Shown: in pieces, positions 35,234 to 53,523 of the stretch
Position numbering within the stretch: the first letter of the stretch is position 1
Layout of the letters: every line of letters starts with the position of its first letter
Origin: Hungatella sp.
GTDB taxonomy: Bacteria > Bacillota > Clostridia > Lachnospirales > Lachnospiraceae
Direction: 5' to 3'
NCBI GenBank assembly: GCA_022792815.1
Contig: JAAWBS010000063.1
Span: 1 to 64,000 of the forward strand
Length of the DNA stretch: 64,000 bases
Made by a program: the position numbers and the translations under genes
Notes under the pieces: model-generated
Databases searched by the model: none
What the model was told of the DNA's origin: nothing
The model's input: the letters and a program-made list of their open reading frames with translations, nothing else

Positions 35234-37117
35234 TCACAGTTCTTCCTCCCCCACCTCAATCACCTGATCATAAGAAGTAAGCCACTGCCGCTTCTCCACC
35301 TCCACGGCCCGCAGAAGCACCTGATTTCCAAACACGCTCACCATATAGCCCGTATGAAGATTTACCTCCCCTAAAAGCTTCGACATACCATACCCGAATT
35401 GATTCTGGGCAAAGCAGGGCACATCGATGGCGTGATACCCGGCCCTCGTCTTCACCGCACCGCAGCAGTCCCCCAGGCCGTGGTGCACATGCCCGGTGCA
35501 GACCACCACCTCCGGATACCGGTCCAAGATCTGGTAGAACTCATGGGCCCAGGTAGAGAGGATCACCGACAGCTCCTTATAGTTGCCGTCTGTCTGTCTG
35601 GCAAGCACTTCCCGGACAGAATTATGGATAAAGAGAAACACCGGCCTTTTGTGTCCGCTGTAAGCCTCCAGCTTCTCCTCCAGCCATACCAGCTGCTCCT
35701 TCTTCAGATCCCCCGCGTGAACCCAAAGCCCCTTATATCCCGTAAGGGTATAGGTATCACTGATCTGGGACAGCACCAGAAAATGGCACCCGCCCGCTTC
35801 ATACTCATAATACAGCTTGTCATACCCCTTGGGCACCATGCCCATCTGCGCCAGCTTTCCCGTGTGATAAGCCTTTAATTCCCCGCTGCTCATCTCCAGA
35901 GTCTCGTGATTACCCAGAGTCACCAGCGCTGCCAGTCTCCCCCGGTTCTTCTCCACAGCCTCCCAATACCCTTCAAGCTCCGGATCCTTCCCGAAATTCG
36001 AATAATCCCCGCAGTCCGCAAATGCATCGAATCCCAATTCATTAGCCCAGGTCAAAGCCTTCCCGTAAGCCAGGGCCTTCGGCATACCAGGCCCCTCCAC
36101 ATGGGCGTCGGAGACCAGAAGGAAGGACACATCCGGTTTCTCCGTATTCAAAAGAAACTCCTCATATGCCGAGACAATCCGGCCCCGGAGCGCCGCCGCC
36201 TCTTCCTCCCGCTTCTTCCAGTCTCCCTCACCTTCCTCTCTCCATCGCTCTTTCAGTCTCTCAGCCTCACCCTCCGCTGTCTTCACGGTCTCCAGGATCT
36301 CCCTCACCCTCTCCTCCCGGTAGATCTTCGAGGGCAGAGGACGTTTCCCAAGCTCCTCCCTGATTCTTGCGATATCTCCCAGGGCGAACCCTGCACCGAT
36401 CTCCTCCCCTGTCATCACCCGTCCGCAGATCCTCAGACTGCTGATTGTCACCTCTCCCAGACCATTGCGCCCCTGTCCGTCGGCACCAAGCACCAGCCGT
36501 CCCTGTCCCAGGCTCTTCCCTTTCTCCGATTCCAGACTGGCTTCCCTCAAAAGCTCCCCGTCCAGATACACTCTCTCCGAAATCTCCCGGTCAAACACCA
36601 CCGTCACCAAGTGCCATCTGTCGTCATCCGGCTCCTTCATGCTCCCCAGCCGGATCACCTCCCCGCCTTCCCCCCGAAAGCAGGTGCTGAAATAGACCTG
36701 ATACTGAGCATTCGCCAGAGAAAAACCCGCCTGTCCTTCCTCCACGTACCCTCCGTCCCACGGCATATTGGCCAGGATGACTCCCCCATACCGTCTCTGC
36801 TTCCTGGTCCTCTGATTCCCCTGCTCAAAATCCTGAGGCGGCATCACCTCGTCATAAGGCCACCCGTTGCAGCCGTTCCTGTGAGTCCGCATCCACAGGC
36901 TCACCGAAAAACTGTCCTCCCCCAGATCCACGGAACCGAAATCCACATACTGACCGGCCTCCCCGCCCCCCTGATTATCAAAATACAGGCTTGGCCTCCC
37001 GTCATACCCTCTCACCACCGCCGGATCACCATGAATCTCCCCCTGATTCCCCGTCCGGGAGATCACCCGATTCCCCTCAATCCGACTAAAATCCACATCC
37101 AAAATCACTCTCTCCAT
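35234..37117 (-). CDS. LamG-like domain fused to calcineurin-type phosphoesterase
   Basis: The 627-residue protein has an N-terminal concanavalin/LamG domain (about 1-225; VDLGEDSFSVSLWMRTH and VTVVFDREISERVYLDGELL), a helical linker (about 250-320) and a metallophosphoesterase domain (about 325-600) with metal motifs LVSDAHVEG, ADCGDYSN, TLGNHET, FIHNS and CTGHVHHG. No signal peptide is present. Such proteins accompany glycan loci and may remove phosphate from a sugar polymer fragment. A TGT-N4-ACA palindrome lies at 37159-37168, so it may belong to the regulon to its right. Role is inferred. Confidence 0.78.
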   Translation of the reverse strand: MERVILDVDFSRIEGNRVISRTGNQGEIHGDPAVVRGYDGRPSLYFDNQGGGEAGQYVDFGSVDLGEDSFSVSLWMRTHRNGCNGWPYDEVMPPQDFEQGNQRTRKQRRYGGVILANMPWDGGYVEEGQAGFSLANAQYQVYFSTCFRGEGGEVIRLGSMKEPDDDRWHLVTVVFDREISERVYLDGELLREASLESEKGKSLGQGRLVLGADGQGRNGLGEVTISSLRICGRVMTGEEIGAGFALGDIARIREELGKRPLPSKIYREERVREILETVKTAEGEAERLKERWREEGEGDWKKREEEAAALRGRIVSAYEEFLLNTEKPDVSFLLVSDAHVEGPGMPKALAYGKALTWANELGFDAFADCGDYSNFGKDPELEGYWEAVEKNRGRLAALVTLGNHETLEMSSGELKAYHTGKLAQMGMVPKGYDKLYYEYEAGGCHFLVLSQISDTYTLTGYKGLWVHAGDLKKEQLVWLEEKLEAYSGHKRPVFLFIHNSVREVLARQTDGNYKELSVILSTWAHEFYQILDRYPEVVVCTGHVHHGLGDCCGAVKTRAGYHAIDVPCFAQNQFGYGMSKLLGEVNLHTGYMVSVFGNQVLLRAVEVEKRQWLTSYDQVIEVGEEEL

Positions 37118-37158
37118 CTTCCTCTCCTCTCATTTTCCTATACAGACAGCGCCAATCC

Positions 37159-37168
37159 TGTCATTACA
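37159..37168. promoter_or_regulatory. TGT-N4-ACA operator-like palindrome
   Basis: TGTCATTACA lies between the divergent phosphoesterase and DUF624 genes. It matches the motif repeated at other promoters of the 37-53 kb region. Confidence 0.45.
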
Positions 37169-37182
37169 TCTCATCGCTTTTC

Positions 37183-37211
37183 TTGACTTTGTAATAACAT
37201 CATGCTAAAAT
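37183..37211 (+). promoter_or_regulatory. DUF624 gene promoter with operator in spacer
   Basis: TTGACT (37183-37188), a 17-bp spacer and TAAAAT (37206-37211) form a promoter toward the DUF624 gene. The palindromic element TGTAATAACA (37190-37199) occupies the spacer. Confidence 0.65.
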
Positions 37212-37313
37212 CATACCATACAACTATCTTCCGTGAATTATCCGAGAAGACTATCAAAGGAATCGGTTTTTCAAAAACCAATCTCCGCCCTCCAAGAAAG
37301 GCCCGGTACCACC

Positions 37314-37904
37314 ATGAAATGGAATCAGGACAACTTCCTCTTTACAATTTTAAGCAAAGGCCTGGACATCTGCTGCGCCAGCCTGCTGTGGTTTCTCTGC
37401 TGTGCCCCCATCATCACCGTCGGGGCCTCCACCACTGCCCTCCATGCCGCCATGCAGAAGCTGTGCCGGGATGAGGGGAGCGGCATGACCCGCACTTTTT
37501 TCCATTCCTTTCGGCGCAATTTCCGCCAGGCCACCTGCATCTGGCTGGTCATGATGGTGTTTCTCGCGGTGCTGGTCGGCGACATCTATGCCTTTCTCAC
37601 CATGAAAGTGATCCCCATGTGGCTTCAGATCGTCCCCTTTTTCTGCGGCATCCTGTTTCTGCTCCTGTGGCTCTGGGTCTTCAGCTACCTGGCCCGGTTC
37701 GAGGGCACTGTCCTTCAGGTGGTGAAAAATTCCCTGCTCATGTCCGTACGCCATCTGGGCTGGAGTCTTCTGATCCTCTTCATCTTTGTCATGACTGCCG
37801 TGACCGGAGCCGCCGTGGCCATCCTTCTGATCTTTGTCCCCGGCATCTACGCCTATCTGAAGGCGGTGATCCAGCGCAGAGTCTTTGATCAGTACGAATC
37901 CTGA
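37314..37904 (+). CDS. DUF624 (YesL-like) membrane protein
   Basis: The 196-residue protein has about five membrane helices and the DUF624 opening LFTILSKGLDICCASLLWFL then CCAPIITVGASTTALHAA. YesL-type proteins are encoded beside CUT1 sugar importers and glycan enzymes in Firmicutes, with unknown function, perhaps importer assembly or control. It lies divergently from the phosphoesterase and convergently to the TIM-barrel gene, and carries an operator shared with the regulon. The ribosome site is weak (GAAAGG). Confidence 0.82.
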   Translation: MKWNQDNFLFTILSKGLDICCASLLWFLCCAPIITVGASTTALHAAMQKLCRDEGSGMTRTFFHSFRRNFRQATCIWLVMMVFLAVLVGDIYAFLTMKVIPMWLQIVPFFCGILFLLLWLWVFSYLARFEGTVLQVVKNSLLMSVRHLGWSLLILFIFVMTAVTGAAVAILLIFVPGIYAYLKAVIQRRVFDQYES

Positions 37905-37933
37905 GATTTCGTCAGCAGACGCCCTTATGAAAG

Positions 37934-37960: not shown

Positions 37961-37966
37961 CTTAAT

Positions 37967-38863
37967 CTAACTGTTCTCTATCTCTTCCACCATCTTCCTG
38001 GCCACCAGACATGCAAATTTCATGCTCTCTGTATGTAGAAAGCCAGGCTCAAATCCGCTGGTAAAGTTGTGAATCTCATAGGTAAAGTCCCCTGCGTATC
38101 CGATCTCTTTCAACGCTTTCAGCACCGGCCCCCACTGGATATGTCCCACATAGGGCAGGACATGATCGTCCTTCTGTCCCCTGTTGTCATTGATGTGGAG
38201 GGCCTTTAAACGGCTTCCGATCTGACGCAGAGACTCTGGCTGATTTAAGCGGTTTAGATGGGCATGGCCTGTGTCCCAGCAGATTCCGAATAATTTGTCG
38301 TCTCCCAGCCGGTCCAAAAGCTCCATCAGGTCTTCCGCCGTCCCGCCGAACCGCCGCTCGGCCTTGTTGTCAATCATGTTCTCGATGGCAATGCCTACAT
38401 TCCACTTAGCCGCCAGCTCTCCGAATCGCTTGCAGCGCTCGGTCTCCTTTTCCAGAGAAAGCCTCCGGGAGTATCCCGCCTCATCCCACGCCGTATCCGG
38501 GTGCAGCACCATCCAAGGGACTCTGCAGATGCCCGAGGCCTCGATATCCCGCAGGATGCGGCCCGTATTGTCCTCCCACTGGAGAGGTGTGTAGATCCGG
38601 CTGTCCCACACACTGTAGTAGTGGGCATGGCTCTGAGTGACAGGGAGACCGACTTCATCACAGATCTCCTTCTGACGTTTCACCCAATCTTGCCACCCAG
38701 GCTCCGCCATGGGATAGCCGTCCCGGCCGTAGACCACAAATCCCAGGTCAACGGCATCGTATCCCGCAGCCGCGATGGCTCTCACAGACTCCTCACATGT
38801 AAAATACACCTTGCTGTCCCACTGTACCCGGCAGCACATTCCTGTAGATGTTGAAACTCTCAT
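37967..38863 (-). CDS. Xylose-isomerase-like TIM barrel (sugar isomerase/epimerase family), copy 1
   Basis: The 298-residue protein belongs to the AP-endonuclease-2/xylose-isomerase-like family (PF01261). Metal-site motifs are SHAHYY, IENMIDN, CWDTGHAHLN, LKALHINDN and FTYEIH. Members isomerise, epimerise or beta-eliminate sugars, including 3-keto-glycosides. It is the last gene of the importer operon, directly after flavoenzyme copy 1, and is a paralogue of the protein at 52369-53262. GGAGGAG lies 7 bases before the ATG. Substrate is unknown. Confidence 0.85.
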   Translation of the reverse strand: MRVSTSTGMCCRVQWDSKVYFTCEESVRAIAAAGYDAVDLGFVVYGRDGYPMAEPGWQDWVKRQKEICDEVGLPVTQSHAHYYSVWDSRIYTPLQWEDNTGRILRDIEASGICRVPWMVLHPDTAWDEAGYSRRLSLEKETERCKRFGELAAKWNVGIAIENMIDNKAERRFGGTAEDLMELLDRLGDDKLFGICWDTGHAHLNRLNQPESLRQIGSRLKALHINDNRGQKDDHVLPYVGHIQWGPVLKALKEIGYAGDFTYEIHNFTSGFEPGFLHTESMKFACLVARKMVEEIENS

Positions 38864-38984: not shown

Positions 38985-40835
38985 TTAATATACTCTCACC
39001 TCATACACCACGACTCTCTCGGAACCGTTGGTGCTCACCGGCGTCACCCGAACCGTGTCGGCCTCCGCACCGCCTGCCTCGATGCGGCACAGCCTCTGGT
39101 GGTTATCCCGAACCCGGACCGTCTCCACTACCTGGCCGTCCTTTAAAAACTCCACATCCACGTCTTTCACCAGCTCCCGGGGAACACCGGGACGCTGCTG
39201 TTTCTGCCGGTTGGGCGCCATGGTCACCCGGATGGGGTAGGCAAAATTAGAGTCAAAGGTCAGACGAACCTGGCTGATCCTGTGGACACCGTCCAGGGCC
39301 AGAGTCAGGCTATCCCCCGGTCTGGCAGCCCAGCCGTTTAACTCCTCCCCCAGCTTTCGGGAGATTCCGTTGATCACCTTCTCAGCCTCCCCGCCGGGCT
39401 CTGCCCAGGTGGCGGACACCCTGGCCCTAAGAGCCAGATCCTCCGGATCCTCATTCTTGAATCCCGGCAGGAAGCCGTCCTCCTTCAGGATCCTCTGCTG
39501 CAGCTCCTTCATGTGGGGTACCAATTCTTTGGGCTCGCACCCGTACCTGACGCACATGGAGGCCGCGATTCCCACCGCCTCCCCTCCGACGGCGCAGGTG
39601 CCGATGATCCGGGAGCTGGCCATGCCCAACCTGGTAGCGCTGATGTCCCTGCCTGCCATGTACAGGTTGTGAATATTTTTCGAGTAGTAGGAGCGGTAGG
39701 GAATGGTATACACCCCCTCATAAAAATTGCAGTCCGAAGGAAGCTTATCAAAATCCATCAGCCCGTGGGGAGCGTGGAGATCCACACACCATCCGCCGTA
39801 GCACACCGCATCCTCAAAGATCCTATGATTTAAGATATCCGTCTCCGACAGCAGGTGGTCGCCTACCAGACGGCGGCTTTCCCTGACTCCCGGCAGAGCC
39901 CCCACCCACTCCAGAGCAAAATTCTCCGCCTGATGGTCATGAACCCCCTCGCCATTGTTCTTGATGTGGTCCCAGATACCGTAGGCATAGGCCATTAAAT
40001 CGTCCCTTATGGTTTCAAATTCCGCTATAATGTCGTCCCCCTCGCCGCACAGCTCCAGCCACCAGTAACCGTAGTCATTGCAGGCACTGCTGGTCATAGA
40101 GGTACGCTTGTACTCCTCCGGGTCCGGAGAATCGCTGCAGTCGATGGTGTCCCTCATCTGGACACAGTGGATCCTCTTGGCCAGCTGCTTCTCCGTCAGC
40201 TTCTTGGCAAAGCTGGGCGGCGTAAACTTCACCGGATGTCCCATGTCCTTGGCTTTCATCATGATGGTGTTGCCCATGCGGTAGTTATTCGGCTCCTCGG
40301 GTGCATGAAGCTCCCCAAACTCACTTTTCGCCTCGCTGCCCGCACGCCACCGGGCCCCTGCGTAGTAGCCCAGAGTGCCGTTGCCCGTGGCATCCACAAA
40401 GACCGGGGCACTTAGTCGATAACGCATCTCCGTGGTCTCCTGGACACACATGACTGCCGTGATCCGATTATCCGCCACGTCACAGTCATACATCACCGTG
40501 TTAAAGAATACATCCAGGTTTTTCTCCGCCTTCGCCTTGTCAAACAGCACCATGTCCCAGGTGGAATAGCTGAAGTTGTCATTACAGCTTTTATTTTCCA
40601 GCATCAACTCGTACAGCAGGCCGCCCTCGGCGTAGTCCGGCTGTTTGATGGACTGGTCCGCCCCGGATATATGGATGCGGATTTCACTGGATGCATTGCC
40701 CCCCAGCACGGGACGGGCATTGATAAGAGCCGTGTGAGCCCCCTGGCGGGCCGAGGCCATAGCGGCACAGAGGCCGGACATCCCCGCCCCCACGACGATC
40801 ACATCAAAGACTTTCTCTTCATATCTCACATTCAT
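38985..40835 (-). CDS. FAD-dependent oxidoreductase (PF12831 type), copy 1
   Basis: The 616-residue protein starts with a Rossmann FAD site (VIVVGAGMSGLCAAMASARQ) followed by GGNASSEIRIHISGAD, a second nucleotide-binding region with VDATGNGTLGYYAGA, and the C-terminal FAD loop MASSRIIGTCAVGGEAVGIA (about 400-420). Residues about 480-616 form a separate discoidin-like beta-sandwich (VRLTFDSNFAYPIRVTM, ending VYEVRVY). No export signal is visible, so it is cytoplasmic. I infer oxidation of a sugar or glycoside hydroxyl. ATG 40835 follows GGAGGAGAC. It lies in the importer operon. Confidence 0.82.
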   Translation of the reverse strand: MNVRYEEKVFDVIVVGAGMSGLCAAMASARQGAHTALINARPVLGGNASSEIRIHISGADQSIKQPDYAEGGLLYELMLENKSCNDNFSYSTWDMVLFDKAKAEKNLDVFFNTVMYDCDVADNRITAVMCVQETTEMRYRLSAPVFVDATGNGTLGYYAGARWRAGSEAKSEFGELHAPEEPNNYRMGNTIMMKAKDMGHPVKFTPPSFAKKLTEKQLAKRIHCVQMRDTIDCSDSPDPEEYKRTSMTSSACNDYGYWWLELCGEGDDIIAEFETIRDDLMAYAYGIWDHIKNNGEGVHDHQAENFALEWVGALPGVRESRRLVGDHLLSETDILNHRIFEDAVCYGGWCVDLHAPHGLMDFDKLPSDCNFYEGVYTIPYRSYYSKNIHNLYMAGRDISATRLGMASSRIIGTCAVGGEAVGIAASMCVRYGCEPKELVPHMKELQQRILKEDGFLPGFKNEDPEDLALRARVSATWAEPGGEAEKVINGISRKLGEELNGWAARPGDSLTLALDGVHRISQVRLTFDSNFAYPIRVTMAPNRQKQQRPGVPRELVKDVDVEFLKDGQVVETVRVRDNHQRLCRIEAGGAEADTVRVTPVSTNGSERVVVYEVRVY

Positions 40836-40931
40836 AAGTTTGTCTCCTCCTGGTACGCTCGTAAGCATTTTGTATACAATCAGCCCTCTCACAGCCCTCA
40901 AGAGTCCTGTAAGCGCGGCTCCATGTCCTCG

Positions 40932-41564
40932 TCATTCTCCTGCGGCAGTCTCCGGCCCCTCGTATCCTCCGTACATGGTAAACCGATCCAGCCCCATGTA
41001 GGACAGCTCCTCAAATCCTTCCATATAATTGTCCGGAAGATAGTTCTTGTCAAACTTGATGTCCTGCTTGATGGTGTTCATGGTATACACATACACAATA
41101 TGATTCCACGGTTCATCTAAAAGGGCGTACTCGTAACAGAAATCGTAGCCCTCGATGGCAGAATAACCGGGATAGGCAAATCCTCTGGCTTCCCTGACAG
41201 ACAGTGTCCCTGCCTCGCTTTGAAAGGACAATCCTGCCAGCCGCTCTTTCTCCGCTTCATACTCCTCCTGGCTCAGCGTACAGGACAGATAGATCTGACA
41301 CATAGGGCGGGTCCACCCGTTTTCAAACTTGTAAAAATACTGCACATTCTCCGCGGAAGATGGCACGTTCTCGGGAAATACCAGAAGACGAGAATATTTC
41401 TCCGGCACCGCCCATTGGCCGTATTTTGAGATATCATTGGCCGACTCCCTCACGTCCCCTCTCAGCAGATATGGCAAAATGAGGGCGGCAGCCATAAGGA
41501 TGAGCATGAACACGATGCTCACCCCCATTAAAACCGCCGCCCTCTTTCCGGGTCTTCGTCTCAC
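40932..41564 (-). CDS. Membrane-anchored protein of unknown function
   Basis: From the GTG at 41564 the product has 210 residues: a basic start (RRRPGKRAA), one transmembrane helix (VLMGVSIVFMLILMAAALIL) and an outer domain of about 170 residues rich in Tyr and Glu, with YFYKFENGWTRPMCQIYLSC and SAIEGYDFCYEYALLDEPW. I recognise no family. The start falls 9 bp beyond the permease stop, and the open frame that continues upstream only shadows the permease gene. Its place between importer and flavoenzyme suggests an extracytoplasmic accessory to uptake. Confidence 0.6.
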   Translation of the reverse strand: MRRRPGKRAAVLMGVSIVFMLILMAAALILPYLLRGDVRESANDISKYGQWAVPEKYSRLLVFPENVPSSAENVQYFYKFENGWTRPMCQIYLSCTLSQEEYEAEKERLAGLSFQSEAGTLSVREARGFAYPGYSAIEGYDFCYEYALLDEPWNHIVYVYTMNTIKQDIKFDKNYLPDNYMEGFEELSYMGLDRFTMYGGYEGPETAAGE

Positions 41565-41572
41565 TGTCCCTG

Positions 41573-42451
41573 TTATCCCTTGACGGCTCCCACAGTCAGA
41601 CCTTTGATAAAGAACTTCTGACCGCTTAAGAACACGATAAATACAGGGATGGTAGCCAGGGCGCAGGCTGTCATGGATAAGTTGTACTGGGTCACCTCGA
41701 TACCCGCAAACTGGTCCAGTGCCAGCGGAATGGTCCAAAGCTTCCAGCTGGACAGGAAAATCAGCGGATCCTGATAGGCGTTCCAGGAATTCAAAAACTG
41801 TACTGTGGCGATGGCTGCGATGGTAGGCTTCACCAGGGGCACCATGATCCACATAAAGGTGCGAAATTCACTTGCTCCGTCGATCTTAGCCGACTCTCTC
41901 AGCTCTTCCGGGGCCCCCATAAATGCCTGGCGCATCATGAAACAGGAGGACACTGCCACGATCTTAGGAAGGATGACCGCCCAGTGGGTGTTGAACAGAC
42001 CTACCTGGTTGAAGATGATAAACCGGGGGATCAGAGTCAGCTGGGACGGGATCATCATCTGGGACAGATACAGCATAAACAGGATGTTCTGCCCCTTAAA
42101 TCTCATCTTTCCGAATGCATATCCTGCCAGAGTGGAGCTGACCACTGCCACCAGAGTCGCACAGACAGCCACCTTGATGGAATTCCAGTAGGACAGCAGG
42201 AAATGATAGTTAGTGTAGGATTTAAAATAACCCAGGTTCAGTACCCTCGAATAGTTGTCCGTATACCAATAGTTGGGAAACAGCTTAAAGGGTGTTGCCA
42301 TAACATCCCTCTCCAGCTTAAAGGAGGAGGATACCATCCACACAAAAGGAATCAGCATGAAAATGGTCAGGGCGATGATAAAAATGGTCACAACAGTACG
42401 GGTAATCATATTTTTCGGCGATTTGCTGCCGACTACAGTCGTTTTTGCCAT
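41573..42451 (-). CDS. ABC sugar importer permease (MalG type)
   Basis: The 292-residue protein has six membrane helices and the EAA loop ESAKIDGASEFRTFMWIMVP. It pairs with the next upstream gene, 12 bp away, as the channel of a CUT1 sugar importer and ends with the usual KGLTVGAVKG. AGGAGGAGAG precedes its ATG. No ATPase gene is nearby. Confidence 0.93.
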   Translation of the reverse strand: MAKTTVVGSKSPKNMITRTVVTIFIIALTIFMLIPFVWMVSSSFKLERDVMATPFKLFPNYWYTDNYSRVLNLGYFKSYTNYHFLLSYWNSIKVAVCATLVAVVSSTLAGYAFGKMRFKGQNILFMLYLSQMMIPSQLTLIPRFIIFNQVGLFNTHWAVILPKIVAVSSCFMMRQAFMGAPEELRESAKIDGASEFRTFMWIMVPLVKPTIAAIATVQFLNSWNAYQDPLIFLSSWKLWTIPLALDQFAGIEVTQYNLSMTACALATIPVFIVFLSGQKFFIKGLTVGAVKG

Positions 42452-45155: not shown

Positions 45156-45165
45156 TGTAATTACA
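45156..45165. promoter_or_regulatory. TGT-N4-ACA operator-like palindrome before binding-protein gene
   Basis: TGTAATTACA is a perfect palindrome about 20-30 bases downstream of the predicted transcription start of the binding-protein operon, a position suited to repression by roadblock. Confidence 0.5.
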
Positions 45166-45377: not shown

Positions 45378-47225
45378 TTATGAGTAAATACGCACTTCCT
45401 GTACCATAATGTCCTTACAACCATTGGTATTCAGGAAACATATCCGTACCTGATCGCACAGGCAGGTTTCAAAATCCACCGCATTCAGTCTCTGGTAATT
45501 CCCTCTGACACTCTTTTGAGCTATGGGGGTCCCGTCTTTTAAAAGAATCACATCATAGTCTTTCACCAGCTCAGGGGGCACGCCGATCCTCTGCTGGGCT
45601 CTCCTCCGGTCGGACAGGGTCAGTTTGATGGGATAGCGGAAGTTGGGATCAAAGGTAAGCCGCACCTGGGAGACCTTCTCCGGGGTTTTCAGAGTCAGAG
45701 TCAGAGTCTCTCCCTCCGGACTTATGCCGTCGGACTCCCAGAGATTGGCCATACCCTTTTCCTCTCTGCTGACACCGTTTACCACATTGGTACAGGGGGA
45801 TTCCCGCTTCTCGGAGCTGGCCGACACCGCCGCCTTCAGAGCCAGATCCCCGGCATCGGTGTTATGATATCCCGGCAGATAGCAGTCATCCTTGAGAAGC
45901 TGCTGCTGCAGCTCCTCCATGTGGGAGGCGATGCCTCTGGGACCGCAGCCGTAGCGGATACACATGGCTGCCGCCGTCCCCACCGCCTGGCCTCCGATGG
46001 CGCAGGTACCCATGACCCGGGTGCTGGAGAACGCCTGCTTGCTGGTACTGATAATCCGCCCCGCCATATACATGTTTTCCAGGTCTTTGGAGTAGAAGCA
46101 GCGATAGGGAATGGTGTAGGCTCCCTCGAAACATTTCACGGTAGACGGCAGCTCGTCAAAGTCAAAGAGGGATACGTGATTGTCCATGGCCCAGCCGCCG
46201 TAGGCCACTGCATCCGGAAAGATCCGATTGGACAGGATATCCTGCTCCACGAGTATGTAGTCTCCCTCCAGCCTTCTGCTCTCCCTCATGCCGGGCATCA
46301 TGCCCACCCACTCTAAGTCAAAGTTCTCCGCCCCGTGATCGCCGCCGTTTTTCACATGGTCCCAGATACCGTAGATACAGGCCACCAGCTCGTCCCGAAT
46401 CTCTTCGTATTCATCTACAATATCCTCCTTGTTCCCCGGCACCTCGATCCACCAATAACCATAGTCCACGGATGAGGTGCTGTAGTTAGCCATGCGTGCA
46501 TAGTCGTCGTCTGAACCGGAGTCGTCAAAAGTACTGTACTTCTTGGCGGCATGGTTGCGGAACCGCAACTGCTCTTCCGTAAATGTCTGAGCAAAGGAAG
46601 GACGTTTGAAATTCACCGAGGTCCCCCTGTCCACCGCCTTGAAAAGCAGGGTATTGCCCATCCGGTGATTGTCCGCTTTCTCCGGCGCATCCGGCTCCCC
46701 GAACTCCTCCCGGCTCTCGCTTCCCTGACGGTAAGAAGCCCCCGCGTAATATCCCAGACTTCCGTTCCCCGTGGCGTCCACAAAGATATCCCCGGCGATG
46801 TCCCAGAAGGTCTCTGTGGTCTGCTGATAGCAGCGGACCTCGGTAATCCGGTTTCCCGAAAGAGTACACCGTTCCATAGCTGTGTTGAAGTAGACTGTCA
46901 GGTTCTCCTGCTTTTTCACTTTCTCAAACAATACCATGTCCCATATGGAATAATTGAAGTAGTCATTGCGGCTTTTATTCTCCAGCATCAGCTCGTAGAG
47001 GATCCCCCCCTCCTCCAGCTCCGGCTTTTTCATGTTCTCCGAGGCCCCGCAGATATGCATCCTGATCTCACTGGAGCTGTTGCCTCCCAGCACATGACGG
47101 GCCTGGATCAGAGCCGTCTTCGCCCCGTGACGCGCTGCCGCCAGAGCCGCACACATACCGCTTAAACCTCCGCCTACAACTACTACCTCATAATTTGCCT
47201 GCTTCCTCTTCTCCCGTATCGCCAT
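45378..47225 (-). CDS. FAD-dependent oxidoreductase (PF12831 type), copy 2
   Basis: The 615-residue protein aligns end to end with the other two copies: VVVVGGGLSGMCAALAAARH for FAD, GNSSSEIRMHICGASENMK, VDATGNGSLGYYAGA, the C-terminal FAD loop FSSTRVMGTCAIGGQAVGTA, and a discoidin-like tail with VRLTFDPNFRYPIKLTL ending VQEVRIY. I use ATG 47225, which gives the same length as its paralogues and an AGGAAAGGA site, rather than 47249. It is transcribed alone from its own promoter with an operator. A cytoplasmic sugar-oxidising role is inferred. Confidence 0.82.
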   Translation of the reverse strand: MAIREKRKQANYEVVVVGGGLSGMCAALAAARHGAKTALIQARHVLGGNSSSEIRMHICGASENMKKPELEEGGILYELMLENKSRNDYFNYSIWDMVLFEKVKKQENLTVYFNTAMERCTLSGNRITEVRCYQQTTETFWDIAGDIFVDATGNGSLGYYAGASYRQGSESREEFGEPDAPEKADNHRMGNTLLFKAVDRGTSVNFKRPSFAQTFTEEQLRFRNHAAKKYSTFDDSGSDDDYARMANYSTSSVDYGYWWIEVPGNKEDIVDEYEEIRDELVACIYGIWDHVKNGGDHGAENFDLEWVGMMPGMRESRRLEGDYILVEQDILSNRIFPDAVAYGGWAMDNHVSLFDFDELPSTVKCFEGAYTIPYRCFYSKDLENMYMAGRIISTSKQAFSSTRVMGTCAIGGQAVGTAAAMCIRYGCGPRGIASHMEELQQQLLKDDCYLPGYHNTDAGDLALKAAVSASSEKRESPCTNVVNGVSREEKGMANLWESDGISPEGETLTLTLKTPEKVSQVRLTFDPNFRYPIKLTLSDRRRAQQRIGVPPELVKDYDVILLKDGTPIAQKSVRGNYQRLNAVDFETCLCDQVRICFLNTNGCKDIMVQEVRIYS

Positions 47226-47297
47226 CTCGTTCTTAGTCCTTTCCTGCATCCTTTTTTGAGCAAAGTTGTCCGTATTTACTGGTGCCTTTTCCGAAGA

Positions 47298-47342
47298 TGT
47301 TATTACAAGTTCTATTATACCGTGAATGTCCTGTCAGTTCAA
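47298..47342 (-). promoter_or_regulatory. Flavoenzyme 2 promoter with downstream operator
   Basis: On the minus strand TTGAAC (47337-47342), a 17-bp spacer and TATAAT (47314-47319) form the promoter. The motif TGTAATAACA (47298-47307, read on the minus strand) covers the start of the transcript. Confidence 0.7.
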
Positions 47343-47448: not shown

Positions 47449-48165
47449 CTACACGCTCATCTGCAGGATAAACGTGTTTCTGTCTGAGGGGTAGTAGCTC
47501 AGCGTATACTCCACCACCTGATCCCGATCCTCCAGAAAACTTATAGACTGAATCAGGATACCCAGACTTCCGTCATCGACTCCCAGGATCCTGGCCAGCC
47601 GGTTGGTGATGAACACCGCGCTGATGGTCTTTCTCAGATGGCGGCGTTCCAGGCGATTTCTCTTATAGATACTGGTCAGGGATTCCTTCTCAAAGTTTTC
47701 CTTCTGAAGGAATATGTATCGGCTGGGAATATAGGTAATATTGTACACGATGGGCCCCCGATCAAAGGAGTCTTTCACATAACGCAGTCTGGACAGTTTG
47801 AACACCTCGTCCCCCACCTTGATTCCCAGATGGGAGGCCACGTCCTCGTCCGCCGATATCACCCGCTGTTCCAGCACCTCCGTCTCGATCTCCATCCCCC
47901 GGGCTCTCATCTCCTTGCTGAAGCTCTCGATAAAGATGGTGGTGTCCTCCATCACCCTGGGTCTGGATACGAAGGAGCCTTTTCCCTTGATTCTGATCAC
48001 ATAGCCCTGATTCACCAGCATGGACAGGGCAGAGCGCACGGTGGGCCGGCTCACCTCAAACTGCTGACACAATTCTTTCTCCGATGGCAGCATATACCCG
48101 GGAGCCCACTCCCCGGATTTGATCTTCTCTAATATAATGTCCGCTATTTTTGTGTAAAGAGACAT
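47449..48165 (-). CDS. GntR/HutC-family regulator (UTRA domain)
   Basis: The 238-residue protein has a GntR winged helix (about 1-70; PGYMLPSEKELCQQFEVSRP then TVRSALSMLVNQGY) and a UTRA effector domain (about 90-235; VFKLSRLRYVKDS and FLEDRDQVVEYTLSYYP). UTRA repressors bind sugar or amino-sugar phosphates. Its promoter spacer holds a perfect palindrome and related TGT-N4-ACA motifs occur at four other promoters of this region, so it is the likely master repressor of the flavoenzyme locus. ATG 48165 follows AAAGGA. Confidence 0.88.
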   Translation of the reverse strand: MSLYTKIADIILEKIKSGEWAPGYMLPSEKELCQQFEVSRPTVRSALSMLVNQGYVIRIKGKGSFVSRPRVMEDTTIFIESFSKEMRARGMEIETEVLEQRVISADEDVASHLGIKVGDEVFKLSRLRYVKDSFDRGPIVYNITYIPSRYIFLQKENFEKESLTSIYKRNRLERRHLRKTISAVFITNRLARILGVDDGSLGILIQSISFLEDRDQVVEYTLSYYPSDRNTFILQMSV

Positions 48166-48202
48166 GTCCGGTCGTCCTTTCCATGTTGCAATAATTAAAA
48201 AC

Positions 48203-48231
48203 ATTATATAAATATGTAAACATATTGTCAA
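48203..48231 (-). promoter_or_regulatory. Consensus promoter of the GntR gene with operator in spacer
   Basis: On the minus strand TTGACA (48226-48231), a 17-bp spacer and TATAAT (48203-48208) are a perfect consensus. The palindrome AATATGTAAACATATT (48211-48226) fills the spacer, implying autorepression. Confidence 0.8.
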
Positions 48232-48276: not shown

Positions 48277-48966
48277 TTACTGTCCGTCTCCAGATACTCT
48301 GTCCTTAAAAATCTTCCATATCTCCCCCGCCACCGCCTCGGCCAGCTTTTCGTGGGATTCCGGCATCCAGTGAAGACCGTCTGCCTCGCTGGGCCCCGCA
48401 TAGTCGGCGGCATTCAGGAAATAACACCCCAGTTCCCCGGCCGCCTGTCGGTACACTTCAGGAAACATCAGGCTGAGCCTGCGGCCTTTTTCACAGCCAA
48501 ACTTGGGGTAGACCTCTGTCCGTCCCTTGGCCAGGCTGATCTGGGTCGGAGCGAGGAGCAGAACCGGGGGAGGCGTGTTGCCTCTGCCGCAGGACGGTGT
48601 GTCCTGAATGATCTTGACCAGTGTGCGGATCCCGTCTCCCAGATGGGCTTCATCCGGCTGCACTGCCAGTTGGAGATCATTGGATCCCAGCATCAGAACC
48701 ACCAGATCCAGAGGCCTGTGGGTCAAAAGGCAGGGCAGAAGATAAGGCTTTCCGTTTAGATAGGCTTTCTCCGGCAGATCGTAGATCGTGGTCCGCCCAC
48801 CCAGGCCTTCCTCTATGATGTGATAATCCGGCCCCAGAAGCTTCGCGACCCGGCCGGTCCACCGAGTGTCCCGGTCATACCGCTCCGACGGAACCCCCAG
48901 ATCTTTCCATCTGGGGATGGATCCCCAGGTGTTTGAATCTCCATAACACAAGATTTCTCTTCGCAT
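48277..48966 (-). CDS. SGNH/GDSL-type esterase
   Basis: The 229-residue protein has SGNH block I as LCYGDSNTWG (Ser11), block II GLGGRTT, block III MLGSNDLQ and block V DGLHWMPESH with the catalytic Asp-His. Relatives include carbohydrate acetylesterases and arylesterases. There is no signal peptide, so it would deacylate imported sugars. It is the last gene of the operon TIM barrel-sulfatase-flavoenzyme 3-esterase, following the flavoenzyme by 64 bp. Confidence 0.87.
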   Translation of the reverse strand: MRREILCYGDSNTWGSIPRWKDLGVPSERYDRDTRWTGRVAKLLGPDYHIIEEGLGGRTTIYDLPEKAYLNGKPYLLPCLLTHRPLDLVVLMLGSNDLQLAVQPDEAHLGDGIRTLVKIIQDTPSCGRGNTPPPVLLLAPTQISLAKGRTEVYPKFGCEKGRRLSLMFPEVYRQAAGELGCYFLNAADYAGPSEADGLHWMPESHEKLAEAVAGEIWKIFKDRVSGDGQ

Positions 48967-49030
48967 GTTCCCTTCCTTCTTTCATCTGTTTTGGCCTGAC
49001 GGCCGTCGTGACTGAAACCCGGGCAGAGCA

Positions 49031-50878
49031 TCAGTATGCGCGAATCTCAAAAATCCGCGCCCTGTCGATGCCATAAGCCTCCAACACCGTCACGGTCAGT
49101 TTATCACACTCCACTCCGTCCTTCCATTCCAGACGGTTTAAACGCTGATAATTGTCCTCTATGTCCCTGGCGCAGACTTCCTGTCCGTCTTTAAACAGCT
49201 GAACCCGGTAGCGCTTTACCAACTCGTGGGGCATCCCCTTTACCTGGCGGTCACGGACATTTTTCGTCAGGGAAGGCATGATCTCACGGTTTAAGTTGGA
49301 GTCAAAGGTCAGCTGAACCTGGGTCAGCACCGTCTCCCCTTCAAAATCCACAGTGATCCACGCGCCGTCTCTGCCGATCTCGGCCTCCCAGCAGTTGTCG
49401 CCCTCATCCGTGGGGCGGGAGATGCCGTTGATCACATGTTCCGGCTCATTGCCCTCCGTGTAACCGGAAGCAGTCACCTTGGCCTTTCTCGCCCGGTCCG
49501 TCGGGTCGTGGCTGGCAAAGCCCGGGATATAGCAGTCGTCTCTCAAAAGCTCCTGCTGCAGCTCATCGATGTGGTCTCCGATCTCCCTGGGCGTACATCC
49601 GTAACGGACAGCCATAGCCGCGGCGGTTCCCACCGCCTGGCCTCCTATGGCACAGGTACCCATGACCCGGGTGGATCCAAATGCCATCTTGGTCGTGCTG
49701 ATATCCCGCCCGGCCAACATCACATTGGACAGGTCTTTGGTGTAATAACATCTCCATGGAATGGTGTAGCAGCCGTCAAAGTTGAGAATCCGGGAAGGAA
49801 GCTTGTCAAAATCCATGATTCCGCCCCTCACGTGCTGATCCATCTGCCAGCCGCCGTAGGCAACCGCATCCGGGAAGACCCGGTTGGCCCTGATGTCGTG
49901 CTCGGTCAGCAGATAGTCTCCCTCGATCCTGCGGCTCTCCCGGTACCCGGGCACCATGCCCACCCAGTCCAGATCCAGGGTCTCCACGCCGTGGTCCCCC
50001 ACATTTTTCAGGTGATCCCACACTCCGTAGACACATTTGAGCAGTTCGTCCCGAATCTCCTCTCCCTCCCGGACGATATCATCGTACTGGCCTCCCATCT
50101 CGATCCACCAGTATCCGGAATCCACGTTGGAAAAATGGGGCAGACGGCTGCTGCCTTCCTCCAGCTCCACCAGCTTGCCGCCTTCCGCATGGGAGCCCAC
50201 GCTGTTGTTGTGGGTCCGGTATTTCAAGTCGTCCTCCGAGAAGGAATAAGCCCAGAAGGGTTTCACGAAGGTCACCGGTTCGCCCCGGTCTATGGCCGTG
50301 AACATCACCGTGTTGCCCATGGTATCCGTATCCGGCTCCTCGGGTGCCCCGGGCTCTCCGAACTCCGCTCTCCCCTCGCTTCCCATCCGGCTTGCGGCTC
50401 CCGCCAGGACACTCAAGGTCCCATGGCCGGTGGCATCGATAAAGAGCGGGGCAAAAAACCGGTACTCGGTCTCCGTAGTGTTCTGATGGCACACGATGGA
50501 TACCACCCTGCCTCCCTCCACCTTCACATCGTCCATATTGGTGTTGAGATAGGAGTCCAGATTCTCCTGAAAATGCACTTTCTCCCAGATCACCGAGTCG
50601 AACACCGGGAAGGAAGCATAAGGGTTGCGGTGCTTGTTCTCCAGAAGAATCTCGTGGAGAATCCCTGTCTCTGCCAGATTCTTTTTGGCGCAGTGGGCGC
50701 TCGCCCCCACCACATGCATGCGGATCTCGGAGCTGGCGTTGCCGCCGAACACGGACCGATTCTGGACAATGGCCGTCTTTACCCCTTTTCTGGCACAGGC
50801 CACGGCCGCACACACTCCCGACAGGCCTCCGCCCACCACTACTACCTGGTAGTTCTTCTCGATACAATACTTTGACAT
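49031..50878 (-). CDS. FAD-dependent oxidoreductase (PF12831 type), copy 3
   Basis: The 615-residue protein has the same plan as copies 1 and 2: VVVVGGGLSGVCAAVACARK for FAD, GNASSEIRMHVVGASAHCAK, IDATGHGTLSVLAGA, the FAD loop FGSTRVMGTCAIGGQAVGTA, and a discoidin-like tail with VQLTFDSNLNREIM ending RIFEIRAY. GGAGGAACCGGAC precedes the ATG. It lies 12 bp downstream of the sulfatase gene. The three copies have diverged strongly in the active-site face regions, suggesting different sugar substrates in one pathway; this is inference. Confidence 0.82.
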   Translation of the reverse strand: MSKYCIEKNYQVVVVGGGLSGVCAAVACARKGVKTAIVQNRSVFGGNASSEIRMHVVGASAHCAKKNLAETGILHEILLENKHRNPYASFPVFDSVIWEKVHFQENLDSYLNTNMDDVKVEGGRVVSIVCHQNTTETEYRFFAPLFIDATGHGTLSVLAGAASRMGSEGRAEFGEPGAPEEPDTDTMGNTVMFTAIDRGEPVTFVKPFWAYSFSEDDLKYRTHNNSVGSHAEGGKLVELEEGSSRLPHFSNVDSGYWWIEMGGQYDDIVREGEEIRDELLKCVYGVWDHLKNVGDHGVETLDLDWVGMVPGYRESRRIEGDYLLTEHDIRANRVFPDAVAYGGWQMDQHVRGGIMDFDKLPSRILNFDGCYTIPWRCYYTKDLSNVMLAGRDISTTKMAFGSTRVMGTCAIGGQAVGTAAAMAVRYGCTPREIGDHIDELQQELLRDDCYIPGFASHDPTDRARKAKVTASGYTEGNEPEHVINGISRPTDEGDNCWEAEIGRDGAWITVDFEGETVLTQVQLTFDSNLNREIMPSLTKNVRDRQVKGMPHELVKRYRVQLFKDGQEVCARDIEDNYQRLNRLEWKDGVECDKLTVTVLEAYGIDRARIFEIRAY

Positions 50879-50890
50879 GTCCGGTTCCTC

Positions 50891-52348
50891 CTATTTTTTT
50901 CCGTCGGCTGCCTTGGGGGAAGCGCCCCGGATGGGCACATTGGCAAAATCCGGGGTCTCTGACCTGCCTCCCCGGGCCGCGTTCATCCGGTGATCCTCTC
51001 TGGCCTGATAGCGCATGTATTCCTGCGTGAGGCGCAGCACCGTGGGCAGGTACTCCGGTTCTTTCGACAGATCATGAAGTTCGTCAGGGTCCTCCTCCAT
51101 ATCGAAGAGCTGAGTCTCGCAGGTGTCATAAAACATGTTCAGTTTATATTTATCGGTCCGGTACATGGTGGCAAGCACCGGATAGGGGAATACATCGTCG
51201 TCACATTTGCCGCTGCCCCGATATTCACAGACGGCAAAAGGCCTCTCGTTCTCATCCTGCAGGGCCAGGCTTTCGGGACGGATGGACACATCTCCGCCTC
51301 CGGCCTGTAAAAGTGTGGAGAACAGGTCATTGAGCTGAACCAGCCTATTGCTTCTCACCATCTGTTTCTGTCCCGGATACTTGATCAGCAGGGGAACATT
51401 GGTACAATCCTCATAGAAATCAGAGCCCTTGGTGTACAGGTAGTGGTCGCCCAGCATATCTCCGTGATCTGAGGTAAACACGATCAGGGTATCATCGTAG
51501 ATTCCCTCCTCCTTGAGGGCATCGATCAGCTTCCCCACCTGCCGGTCCAGGAAGGAGATGCTTGCAAAATAGTCCCGTCTCATGTCATGGAGCTGCTGAT
51601 CTGTAGGCGGTGTCTTACTTCCGTGGAGCTCCCGCTCCAGCTTCACGCCTTCCGGACAGTCAAAATCTGCTTCCGAGCGAACCGGCTCCTCGTAGCAGTC
51701 CTCATTGAGCCACGAGGCTGCCTCCTGGGGATAGTGGTCATAAGGATTATGGGGATCAAACAGGCCTGACATCAGGAAAAACGGCTTTTCGCCTCTCTCC
51801 CGGACATACTCTGCCGAGCGCTCGCCTACCCAGGTGCTGAAATGTGTCGAGGCAGGGCGGAATTTTCTCTTACGGCCCTCTGTGTACACCCGCTCATATT
51901 CCTCCGGATCCTTCTCCTTCAGCCAGCGGGCATAGCCGTTGAACTTGCCGTCCATGTGGATGCTGGCCTCATGGCACAGCTCATAGACGTCAAAGCCGTC
52001 GCCTGCGTTGCGGTGGTCACGCTCAAAGACGATGCCGCTGACATGGAGCTTTCCGATAAGCGCGGTATCATAGCCCTGATCCTTCAGATAGGACGGCAGA
52101 AGCCGTTCCTCCTGGGGAAGGATGTCAAAGAGATTGTAAACTCCGTGACCGGTGATATTCTTACCTGTCATGACACTGGCCCGGCTGGGGGTACAGACCG
52201 GGGTGTTGCAGTAACAGTGGTCGTAGACCGTGCTCTCCTGGGCCAGACGGTCCAGATTCGGTGTGCTCACATATCCGCAGCCATACACGCCCAGGGAATC
52301 CCGGCGCTGCTGATCGGTCATAATCAATACAATATTCGGTTTTTTCAT
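50891..52348 (-). CDS. S1-family sulfatase (Cys type)
   Basis: The 485-residue protein has the alkaline-phosphatase-like sulfatase fold with metal motif MTDQQRRDSLG and the maturation signature CTPSR (Cys52, converted to formylglycine), followed by ASVMTGKNITGHGVYN, and later FTSDHGDMLGDH. It removes sulfate esters from a carbohydrate. The Cys form needs the anaerobic sulfatase-maturating enzyme, which is not encoded in this window. No signal peptide is seen, so it acts inside the cell on imported oligosaccharides. It is second in the operon. Confidence 0.9.
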   Translation of the reverse strand: MKKPNIVLIMTDQQRRDSLGVYGCGYVSTPNLDRLAQESTVYDHCYCNTPVCTPSRASVMTGKNITGHGVYNLFDILPQEERLLPSYLKDQGYDTALIGKLHVSGIVFERDHRNAGDGFDVYELCHEASIHMDGKFNGYARWLKEKDPEEYERVYTEGRKRKFRPASTHFSTWVGERSAEYVRERGEKPFFLMSGLFDPHNPYDHYPQEAASWLNEDCYEEPVRSEADFDCPEGVKLERELHGSKTPPTDQQLHDMRRDYFASISFLDRQVGKLIDALKEEGIYDDTLIVFTSDHGDMLGDHYLYTKGSDFYEDCTNVPLLIKYPGQKQMVRSNRLVQLNDLFSTLLQAGGGDVSIRPESLALQDENERPFAVCEYRGSGKCDDDVFPYPVLATMYRTDKYKLNMFYDTCETQLFDMEEDPDELHDLSKEPEYLPTVLRLTQEYMRYQAREDHRMNAARGGRSETPDFANVPIRGASPKAADGKK

Positions 52349-52368
52349 CGTTTTCCTTTCTTCACATT

Positions 52369-53262
52369 TTACATGCCCAGCAGATATTGACCCAGCTCGT
52401 AGGAGAATCCCACCAGCTGCCTCTGAACCTGTGCGGGATACATGCTGGTCAGATTGTGGATCTCGAAGGCAAAAGCCTCCTCATAGCCGATCTCTCTTAA
52501 GGCGCTCATGGTGTCGGACCAGTCGATGGTTCCGTTGAAGGGTGCAAAGTGCTCGTCCTTATTCTGGTGGTTGTCAGCGATATGGGTGGCCTTCAGGCGG
52601 CTTCCCATCTGCCGGATCATCTTGGCCGGACTGATGCCTGACAGGTGTGCATGGCCTGTGTCGACACAGATCTGTACCATGGGATTGTCGATGGCATCGA
52701 CCAGCTCCAGCAACTCCTCGCCCCGGGCGCAGTAGCTGACCTTCTGAGGGTTCTTGGCCATGTTCTCGATAGCCATGCCCACCTGATGGTCGGCATAGAT
52801 CTCTCCCCAGCGCTTGAAATATTCCCGGTTGTACGCAAAAGATTCCTTGTAGTGATACCAGCTCTCCTGCCACACCGTGAAAGGATGAACCACCATCCAC
52901 TTGGCTCCCAGCCTCTGCGCGGCGATGACGCTGCGGCGCATCAGCTCCTCGCCCCATTCCCCGTCCGCGCGGGTAAGATTCCCGGAAGTGGAGCTGTCGG
53001 TAAACGGGTTGCCGATGACCCAGTAGGCGTGGGCCTGGATAAATTCCACCCCAAGCTCCTCTGCCAGCCTTATGGCATCCTCCACCCACTGCTCCCATCC
53101 GTCCCCCGCAAGGGGCTGCCCCGGTCTGGCAAAGCCGCAGAGGTTGGCGTCGATGTACTTGTAGCCCGCTGCCGCACAGGCTCTCACCGCCTCCTCCAGG
53201 GAGATGGAGTAGGGCTTTCCCAGATCAAAATTCATAATGTTTGTCGATGTACACAGTTTCAT
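52369..53262 (-). CDS. Xylose-isomerase-like TIM barrel, copy 2
   Basis: The 297-residue protein is a paralogue of that at 37967-38863, sharing CVDTGHAHLSG, the segment MGSRLKATHIADNHQNKDEH, IENMAKN and FAFEIHNLTSMYP. These are metal ligands of the PF01261 family. It heads the operon with sulfatase, flavoenzyme 3 and esterase. ATG 53262 follows GGAGGACAAG; a longer ORF to 53313 lacks a ribosome site. By analogy with 3-keto-glycoside-processing relatives it may act after the flavoenzyme; that link is a hypothesis. Confidence 0.85.
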   Translation of the reverse strand: MKLCTSTNIMNFDLGKPYSISLEEAVRACAAAGYKYIDANLCGFARPGQPLAGDGWEQWVEDAIRLAEELGVEFIQAHAYWVIGNPFTDSSTSGNLTRADGEWGEELMRRSVIAAQRLGAKWMVVHPFTVWQESWYHYKESFAYNREYFKRWGEIYADHQVGMAIENMAKNPQKVSYCARGEELLELVDAIDNPMVQICVDTGHAHLSGISPAKMIRQMGSRLKATHIADNHQNKDEHFAPFNGTIDWSDTMSALREIGYEEAFAFEIHNLTSMYPAQVQRQLVGFSYELGQYLLGM

Positions 53263-53293
53263 CTTGTCCTCCTGACCTTCCGTTCTTACGGAA

Positions 53294-53463
53294 CCACTGG
53301 TGTGCTGACACATTTCCTTTCAGCCAAATGACGCAGAATGAATTTTCAGTCTGCAAGGCGGCGGAGAGAGGCGATGCGGCAGCATCGTTGACCGACAACA
53401 ACGCAGCAGACGGAAATTCAGGAAAATCATTTGGCGAAACGGAAACGTGCCTGTACAAAAGGT
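53294..53463. repeat. Palindromic dispersed repeat (MITE-like)
   Basis: The left arm (CTTTCAGCCAAATGACGCAG, then AATGAATTTTCAGTCTGC) is mirrored by the right arm (GCAGACGGAAATTCAGG, then AATCATTTGGCGAAACG), with weaker pairing outward and a central CGATGC-GGCA-GCATCG hairpin (53372-53387). It lies inside the predicted 5' leader of the TIM-barrel operon. The arm at 3200-3249 is a second, partial copy. Confidence 0.65.
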
Positions 53464-53471
53464 ATGGTTTC

Positions 53472-53523
53472 AGTATATTACATGTCAGGACATATGTCAA
53501 TGTTCTTTTCATATGTTATTACA
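53472..53523 (-). promoter_or_regulatory. Promoter of the sulfatase-flavoenzyme operon with two operators
   Basis: On the minus strand TTGACA (53495-53500), a 17-bp spacer and TATACT (53472-53477) are near consensus. TGTCAGGACA (53483-53492) occupies the spacer and TGTTATTACA (53514-53523) lies just upstream of the -35 box; both fit TGT-N4-ACA. Confidence 0.8.

Follow-up and report, generated by a model that had tools for sequence, protein, structure and literature searches.

A flavoenzyme, TIM-barrel and sulfatase gene block in Hungatella sp. as a candidate oxidation and epimerization pathway for imported sugars

How might imported sugars be processed by a gene block in which a Pfam scan of the encoded proteins finds no glycoside hydrolase? 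This question is raised by a 64 kb stretch of Hungatella sp. DNA (contig JAAWBS010000063.1, positions 1 to 64,000; hereafter the window), which is contig C8 of a 3.8 Mb draft genome, G000. A block at 35.2–53.5 kb, on the minus strand apart from one plus-strand DUF624-like gene, encodes three PF12831-type flavoenzymes (FAD_A, FAD_B and FAD_C), two PF01261 TIM barrels (TIM_A and TIM_B), a sulfatase, an SGNH esterase and a CUT1 importer. A first-pass annotation proposed that the flavoenzymes supply an oxidation step, so that glycosidic bonds are broken by redox chemistry after uptake, desulfation and deacylation. This interpretation is partly supported by the present analysis, and its mechanism is better put as oxidation combined with epimerase-type TIM barrels, the substrate being a sugar or glycoside that has been imported and desulfated. 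Judged from sequence, the gene set probably takes up decorated small sugars, removes their sulfate and acyl groups and remodels them by oxidation with flavoenzymes of a so far uncharacterized family. We tentatively favor, at somewhat less than even confidence, the reading that the block is one co-regulated cytoplasmic pathway, in which an imported decorated sugar or glycoside would be oxidized, epimerized and reduced much as in E. coli ycjQRS, but with redox steps carried out by flavoenzymes.

The flavoenzymes are full-length and similar in size, as first annotated. FAD_A (38985..40901; 638 aa), FAD_B (45378..47249; 623 aa) and FAD_C (49031..50878; 615 aa), all on the minus strand, matched PF12831 over profile positions 1-415 or 1-416 of 416 with 275.7, 305.7 and 297.0 bits, respectively (Pfam cut-off 27), and are pairwise 46-54% identical. 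The real start of FAD_A probably lies internally, and its sequence was aligned from 40832. A GMC-type glycoside oxidase was rejected, as none of the three gave a GMC_oxred match at E up to 0.001. An AlphaFold2 model of FAD_C (mean pLDDT 92.4, pTM 0.94) was matched by Foldseek to FAD folds of the fumarate reductase, geranylgeranyl reductase, monooxygenase and Fix/Etf (chain C) kinds, with low TM-scores among the 50 matches listed (at most 0.34 by query length and up to 0.47 by target length). Enzymes with such folds commonly pass electrons to or from partner proteins or NADPH. The C-terminal beta-sandwich of FAD_C, which is like a carbohydrate-binding module, resembled the fucose-binding modules 2j1r and 2j22 (TM to target 0.79-0.82). 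Among the best 60 of 86 solved chains matching the flavoenzyme profile, none extended further than position 64, the Rossmann end.

A scan of GTDB contigs for flavoenzyme relatives gave 100 relatives, from which 79 distinct loci were obtained. The 134 flavoenzyme open reading frames (ORFs) of these loci were reduced to 94 of 560-680 aa and then to 74 at 85% identity, of which 62 were aligned with the three window proteins. In the midpoint-rooted FastTree of these 65 sequences, four rows formed an outgroup, FAD_A and FAD_B fell in clade I and FAD_C in clade II (local support 0.99 each). A TIM barrel was adjacent in 7 of 25 clade I rows and in none of 33 clade II rows (window rows excluded; Fisher 0.0016), and a zinc-dependent alcohol dehydrogenase (Zn-ADH) gene shared the locus in 1 of 25 clade I rows versus 16 of 33 clade II rows, the latter representing 12 loci (Fisher 0.0003); both values ignore relatedness and are only indicative.

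What chemistry would follow the oxidation? TIM_A (37967..38863; 112.4 bits) and TIM_B (52369..53313; 109.2 bits), both on the minus strand, are paralogues, as first proposed, with 38% identity. They were aligned with 13 TIM ORFs from an initial set of 15, the short L103 and L119 being excluded, to give the 15 rows of alignment A3. E160, D196, H222 and E262 (numbering of the first row) were invariant in all 15, which leaves the metal site from beta-5 to beta-8 intact; from motif alignment to epimerases, we take these residues to be the metal ligands. The glycoside eliminases AtOGE and PuCGE carry a catalytic histidine, His134 and His143, respectively, two residues past the beta-5 metal ligand, and the H134A variant of AtOGE is inactive (PMC10628242). 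Motif alignment placed Met (13 of 15) or Ile (2 of 15) at this position in the TIM family (E-N-M or E-N-I), and YcjR has Leu (E-P-L) where the eliminases have His. This residue test favors epimerase chemistry, elimination by way of another base being conceivable. Among the best 50 of 398 PDB matches to the predicted TIM_A model (pLDDT 88.4; Foldseek, E up to 0.001), sugar 3-epimerases came first and were the most numerous, glucose isomerases stood near the end, YcjR (6wn6), a 3-keto-D-glucoside 4-epimerase, ranked 50, and no entry carried a description as an eliminase of C- or O-glycosides.

These data bear on the best surviving alternative, which is close to the first-pass proposal: the flavoenzymes would make 3-keto-glycosides, the TIM barrels would cut the glycosidic bond by beta-elimination, and a third enzyme would re-reduce or hydrate the product. 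It would agree with the lack of a glycoside hydrolase in the block and with the direct adjacency of an A3-type TIM barrel to a flavoenzyme (at most 250 bp, same strand) in 13 of the 79 loci; 17 loci had such a TIM barrel, those in L083 and L120 being detected by profile search only. The other invariant histidines of A3 (78, 120, 199, 222 and 233) could act as base. Oxidation by a GMC flavoenzyme followed by TIM-barrel elimination is, moreover, already described (PMC10646112, PMC10628242), and this makes the idea less unprecedented than the first-pass annotation stated, although the literature searched contained no PF12831 sugar pathway and no role of the family in glycoside oxidation; PF12831 does appear in a paper on the Brucella flavoproteome. 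Yet the catalytic His is replaced in every TIM barrel aligned, the best-ranked structural matches are mostly epimerases, and the same TIM family also stands beside sulfatases where no flavoenzyme is found. Glycoside hydrolases, furthermore, do adjoin one flavoenzyme: two were present among 60 neighbor proteins from related and other fetched loci, both in L094 (GH16 and GH39-like). Redox cleavage of a glycosidic bond is possible, but we regard this way of achieving it as unlikely.

Transcription of the block runs in the order TIM_B, sulfatase, FAD_C, SGNH esterase, GntR/UTRA regulator, FAD_B, solute-binding protein (SBP), two CUT1 permeases, MEM, FAD_A and TIM_A; past TIM_A lie the plus-strand DUF624-like gene and a minus-strand metallophosphoesterase (MPE). 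The sulfatase, esterase and importer were all found where first annotated. The S1 sulfatase (50891..52348, minus strand) belongs to PF00884, has PDB relatives and is of the Cys type, the CTPSR motif (CxPSR) being read in the sequence; an anaerobic sulfatase-maturing enzyme is encoded in the genome (365.6 bits versus an NCBIfam cut-off of 349.45). By eye, no signal peptide was evident in the sulfatase and none was obvious in the three flavoenzymes or the two TIM barrels. The SGNH/GDSL esterase (48277..48966, minus strand) is of the aryl esterase type by Pfam and PDB similarity, its nearest PDB entries being 7bxb (GDSL-like) and 2q0q (aryl esterase). The importer genes are those of SBP, a lipoprotein (43533..45023, minus strand; PF13416), and of the permeases PermB (42464..43399, minus strand) and PermC (41573..42451, minus strand), both PF00528; no importer ATPase gene was found in the block. 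Among the NCBIfam matches listed for ten block proteins (at most 25 per list; sulfatase and TIM_B excluded), none reached its cut-off, and the permeases were nearest to the UgpA/UgpE/maltose/glucose types.

The GntR/UTRA regulator (47449..48231, minus strand; PF00392, PF07702), whose true start is probably at ~48165, and MEM (~40932..41555, limits approximate, minus strand) are further members of the gene set. MEM, whose N-terminal segment looks membrane-like on inspection, gave no match in the Pfam scan. MPE (35234..37117, minus strand; PF00149, PF13385) is a calcineurin-like metallophosphoesterase with a LamG/ConA-like domain. The small membrane protein at 37233..37904 (plus strand) is called DUF624-like after its syntenic gene in the same-genus genome G022, the gene for which the PF04854 match was obtained.

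Are these genes regulated together? Upstream regions in the block have the motif TGTAATWACA in common. Five places in the 64 kb carry it, compared with 0.12 matches expected by shuffling; the palindromic site, listed twice in the motif search, was counted as one place. Four of the five places precede transcription units of the block, including MPE. A putative GntR operator, TGTAATAACA, at 37190..37199 (plus strand) separates MPE from the divergent DUF624-like gene and lies within a promoter-like site. A second putative operator, the perfect palindrome TGTAATTACA at 45156..45165 (minus strand), precedes SBP, 26 bp downstream of a promoter-like site at 45219-45191. Two more copies of TGTAATAACA are putative operators before FAD_B (47298..47307, minus strand; 7 bp downstream of a promoter-like site at 47342-47314) and before the unit formed by TIM_B, sulfatase, FAD_C and SGNH (53514..53523, minus strand; 13 bp from a promoter-like site). 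Proximity to promoter-like sites is weak evidence, since 23 of them were found versus 12.9 expected. The fifth place (TGTAATAACA, 49741-49750) is hardly an operator because it lies inside the FAD_C gene. We infer that the GntR protein binds the motif. The block looks like one regulon, which probably extends to MPE and hence beyond the start of the interval first annotated.

In G022, the window genes are spread over three contigs. C110 carries FAD_B (89%), SBP (84%) and PermB (91%); C102 carries PermC (95%), MEM (84%), FAD_A (87%), TIM_A (88%), DUF624 and MPE (71%), as well as the sulfatase (89%), SGNH (82%) and GntR (84%); and C9 carries FAD_C (83%), TIM_B (80%), a second importer and a second FAD_B-like protein. 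A further MPE homologue shows 57%, and the two stand beside sulfatase, SGNH and FAD genes. The motif is present before the orthologues of SBP (L053) and TIM_B (L040 and L105, which are one and the same place). Chance assembly of the block was rejected on the basis of the shared motif and this synteny. The split over contigs makes the window look like two modules combined. Of separate interest, an aldo-keto reductase with C-terminal ferredoxin-type domains is encoded directly before the FAD_B orthologue (L053:9156-10271) and is a possible electron partner of the flavoenzyme.

Across the 79 loci, which are mostly from Clostridia but also from Treponema, Spirochaetaceae and one Bacteroidales member, and many of whose titles cite gut or rumen samples, the flavoenzymes recurred in a sugar-uptake setting. 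All neighbor counts are lower bounds, because many contigs are short and genes were called as open frames, some of which are probably false. A CUT1 permease was found in 45 loci, SBP in 27, Zn-ADH in 16, GntR in 15, sulfatase in 12 and ROK in 11; less frequent were SGNH (8), DUF624 (7), short-chain dehydrogenase (SDR; 5), glycerophosphodiester phosphodiesterase (GDPD; 4), FGGY (4), MPE (4) and HAD (3). At least two flavoenzymes were present in 36 loci, and two long ones in 21. The set of SGNH, GntR, FAD_B, importer and sulfatase was likewise present in L104, L106 and, with a single permease called, L100. In locus L068, the genes for GntR, a flavoenzyme, DUF624, SBP and two permeases form one unit, whose only enzyme on that strand is the flavoenzyme; on the opposite strand, a gene of the NAD-dependent epimerase/dehydratase family comes next. 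The gene order is the same in L077, whose contig starts 0.3 kb before GntR, and, as far as visible, in L131, whose contig starts inside the flavoenzyme gene so that GntR is outside the visible part. The recurrence with CUT1 permeases and these small units make it credible that the flavoenzyme takes the first catabolic step on an imported sugar.

Genome G106 has a flavoenzyme, a TIM barrel and a second flavoenzyme in a row. At a distance of ~7-9 kb, its other strand encodes an FGGY kinase and a protein of the ribulose-phosphate-3-epimerase family, a hint that the product may be a ketose. Two further PF01261 subfamilies were seen in L085 and L093; L076 and L095 contain members of the same clusters. 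Tandem TIM barrels, which might form heteromers, were found with sulfatases (L143:3477-5354) and with a flavoenzyme (L123:8078-9865 and L132:8155-9942).

The closest known system is the E. coli ycj cluster (PMC11543891). In the E. coli K-12 annotation, ycjQRS encode a D-guloside 3-dehydrogenase, a 3-dehydro-D-guloside 4-epimerase and a D-glucoside 3-dehydrogenase, and YcjNOP form the importer. The window locus shares with it a CUT1-like importer (permeases 25-29% identical) and an epimerase-type TIM barrel of PF01261, and relatives of the locus add a Zn-ADH similar to YcjQ. The E. coli cluster alone has a Zn-ADH, the second dehydrogenase YcjS, which we take to be of the Gfo/Idh type, and glycoside phosphorylases, whereas the window has PF12831 flavoenzymes, a sulfatase and an esterase and lacks a phosphorylase. 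No NAD-type dehydrogenase (Zn-ADH or YcjS type) was found in the block; a Zn-ADH gene lies elsewhere in the window, at 3375-4406, >30 kb away.

By this analogy, the CUT1 importer would take in a sulfated or acylated sugar or short glycoside, and the sulfatase and SGNH esterase, perhaps with MPE, would strip its decorations inside the cell. A PF12831 flavoenzyme would then turn a secondary hydroxyl into a ketone, next to which a metal-dependent TIM barrel would shift or invert the stereochemistry by epimerase or isomerase chemistry. The ketone would be reset by another flavoenzyme or, in sister loci, by a Zn-ADH or SDR, giving a sugar that feeds central metabolism. Flavoenzymes would thus take the place of one or more NAD enzymes of the ycjQRS scheme, the substrate class, the order of the steps and the redox directions being those that we infer.

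Other systems resemble the block in part. Systems that pair GMC glycoside 3-oxidases (CarA/PsG3Ox, FAD-GO) or GlycDH with TIM-barrel eliminases (CarBC, AtOGE) likewise combine flavin oxidation of a glycoside with a metal-site TIM barrel; flavin-based oxidative deglycosylation is described for FAD-GO (PMC4650693) and, in soil bacteria, for G3Ox with CarBC-type deglycosidases (PMC10646112). They differ in the GMC fold of G3Ox and FAD-GO, the use of O2 as acceptor by G3Ox, their soil hosts and an eliminase His that the window TIM barrels lack, and the descriptions consulted mention neither a sulfatase nor a CUT1 importer. The C-glycoside system of gut strain PUE is, like the one proposed here, a redox step followed by a TIM barrel in a gut anaerobe, but it uses an NAD oxidoreductase (PMC10646112) and PuCGE is a heterodimeric eliminase (PMC10628242).

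Within G000 itself, the TIM family has a second setting. A3-type matches were found on C8 (two), C65, C18, C3, C23 and C1, and 4 of the 5 outside C8 (C65, C18, C23 and C1) lie <10 kb from a sulfatase, compared with ~11% of the genome (binomial 0.0008, which is indicative; 32 of 34 sulfatase matches entered, the two weakest being excluded). No full-length PF12831 protein was found on these four contigs, three of which have Rossmann-end matches of 23-43.5 bits, and the mapped stretches of the corresponding loci (L137-L140) contain no flavoenzyme of the FAD_A/B/C family. Like the window, these loci have sulfatases and importers, and L140 also DUF624 by Pfam; unlike it, three of the four have a BadF/BadG-family gene near the TIM barrel and sulfatase, possibly a sugar kinase. 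TIM barrels beside sulfatases without a flavoenzyme indicate that the family is linked to sulfated sugars independently of the flavoenzymes. The genome as a whole has 34 sulfatase and 20 PF01261 matches, which suggests that the organism uses sulfated glycans.

Several observations weigh against a single oxidation, epimerization and reduction pathway. The flavoenzyme-free TIM loci imply that oxidation may not precede the TIM step. In 250 family genomes (TIM matches with E up to 1e-40 and at most nine candidates scored per genome; flavoenzyme matches with E up to 1e-100 and at most five), only 3 of 46 listed TIM matches lay <10 kb from a listed flavoenzyme match, and the idea that TIM barrels are tied solely to flavoenzymes was accordingly dropped; in the same lists, a TIM match occurred in 7 of 11 flavoenzyme genomes versus 14 of 239 others, relatedness and genome size being ignored. 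The 79 loci are related by descent, so that Fisher values on them are only indicative. The block has no sugar kinase or NAD dehydrogenase for the steps after the TIM barrel, the flavoenzymes have no assigned electron acceptor, and sequence similarity between the TIM barrels and YcjR is weak (19.1 bits in a database of seven proteins). In G022, no exact motif match precedes the FAD_B orthologue or separates MPE from DUF624 (L054), and 119 of 136 loci searched had no match. With some motif copies lacking and FAD_C and TIM_B on a separate contig in G022, the claim of one pathway is for the window and not for the genus.

A different substrate class was also considered, in which cyclitols, sugar acids or alditols, instead of glycosides, are the substrates of the flavoenzymes and the TIM barrels are inosose or keto-acid isomerases or dehydratases (IolO/IolE-like). 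The best NCBIfam matches of TIM_A, all far under their cut-offs, were IolO, psicose epimerase and CbiR, an enolase-superfamily (MR_MLE) gene lies beside the flavoenzyme of L094, and the GDPD, HAD and MPE genes mentioned above would fit; but the sugar types nearest to the permeases, the carbohydrate-binding-module-like domain of FAD_C and the Pfam scan, in which no other inositol-pathway gene was recognized in the block, make this quite unlikely. The weakest proposal, which we consider very unlikely, is that the PF12831 enzymes cleave glycosides in a redox-neutral manner and replace glycoside hydrolases after import as flavin analogues of GH4 and GH109, the FAD holding a hydride while the keto intermediate eliminates or epimerizes in place and then returning it: the sole-enzyme unit, seen whole in L068 and in part in L077 and L131, the lack of ferredoxin, ETF or flavodoxin genes among the annotated subset of neighbor clusters, and the many relatives from animal-gut Clostridia by title, presumably anaerobes, are offset by Zn-ADH, SDR or TIM genes in many loci, which suggest separate enzymes for later steps, by the epimerase/dehydratase gene next to the L068 unit, by the ferredoxin-domain aldo-keto reductase right before one FAD_B relative and by the electron-exchanging kinds of FAD fold matched. 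The oxidation-elimination logic of GH4 and GH109 could fit the flavoenzymes, but those enzymes are NAD-dependent, and neither GH4 nor a Gfo/Idh-type GH109 was among the Pfam matches in the block.

The absence of glycoside hydrolases, stated in the first-pass annotation, holds for the block, but the same contig carries a GH88 gene and a gene weakly similar to PL11 (RGL11_C) at 11.1-14.2 kb, ~21 kb off. They are part of a separate plus-strand sugar locus (7843-14235) with CUT1 permeases and SBP, preceded by a sigma54/PrpR-type regulator. Two recurrent neighbors in the related loci also deserve mention. A protein with BspA-type leucine-rich repeats and a metallo-beta-lactamase domain (cluster c8) occurs at L104:10750-12180 and in 11 other loci, one such protein (L043:6357-9035) also having a GDSL domain; the cluster may be joined partly by the repeats only. 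The GDPD family gene is that of L070:9259-9984 (PF03009), with cluster mates in L074, L091 and L117.

What would the favored pathway mean? For the first oxidation of C-glycosides, NAD enzymes are described in intestinal microbes and FAD (GMC) enzymes in soil microbes (PMC10646112); if the pathway is real, this division would no longer hold, because gut clostridia would be using non-GMC flavoenzymes for redox reactions on sugars. It would also give a function to the PF12831-type family, whose solved relatives, among the best matches, reach only the Rossmann end, and would account for sugar-import loci without a glycoside hydrolase. Were the redox-neutral proposal true instead, the enzymes would be a flavin counterpart of GH4 and GH109 across gut Clostridia, and at least one operon seen in its entirety (L068) would have such an enzyme as the only one beside a sugar importer. 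The oxidation and epimerization pathway, if true, would be a new route by which oxygen-free gut microbes begin to digest unusual sugars.

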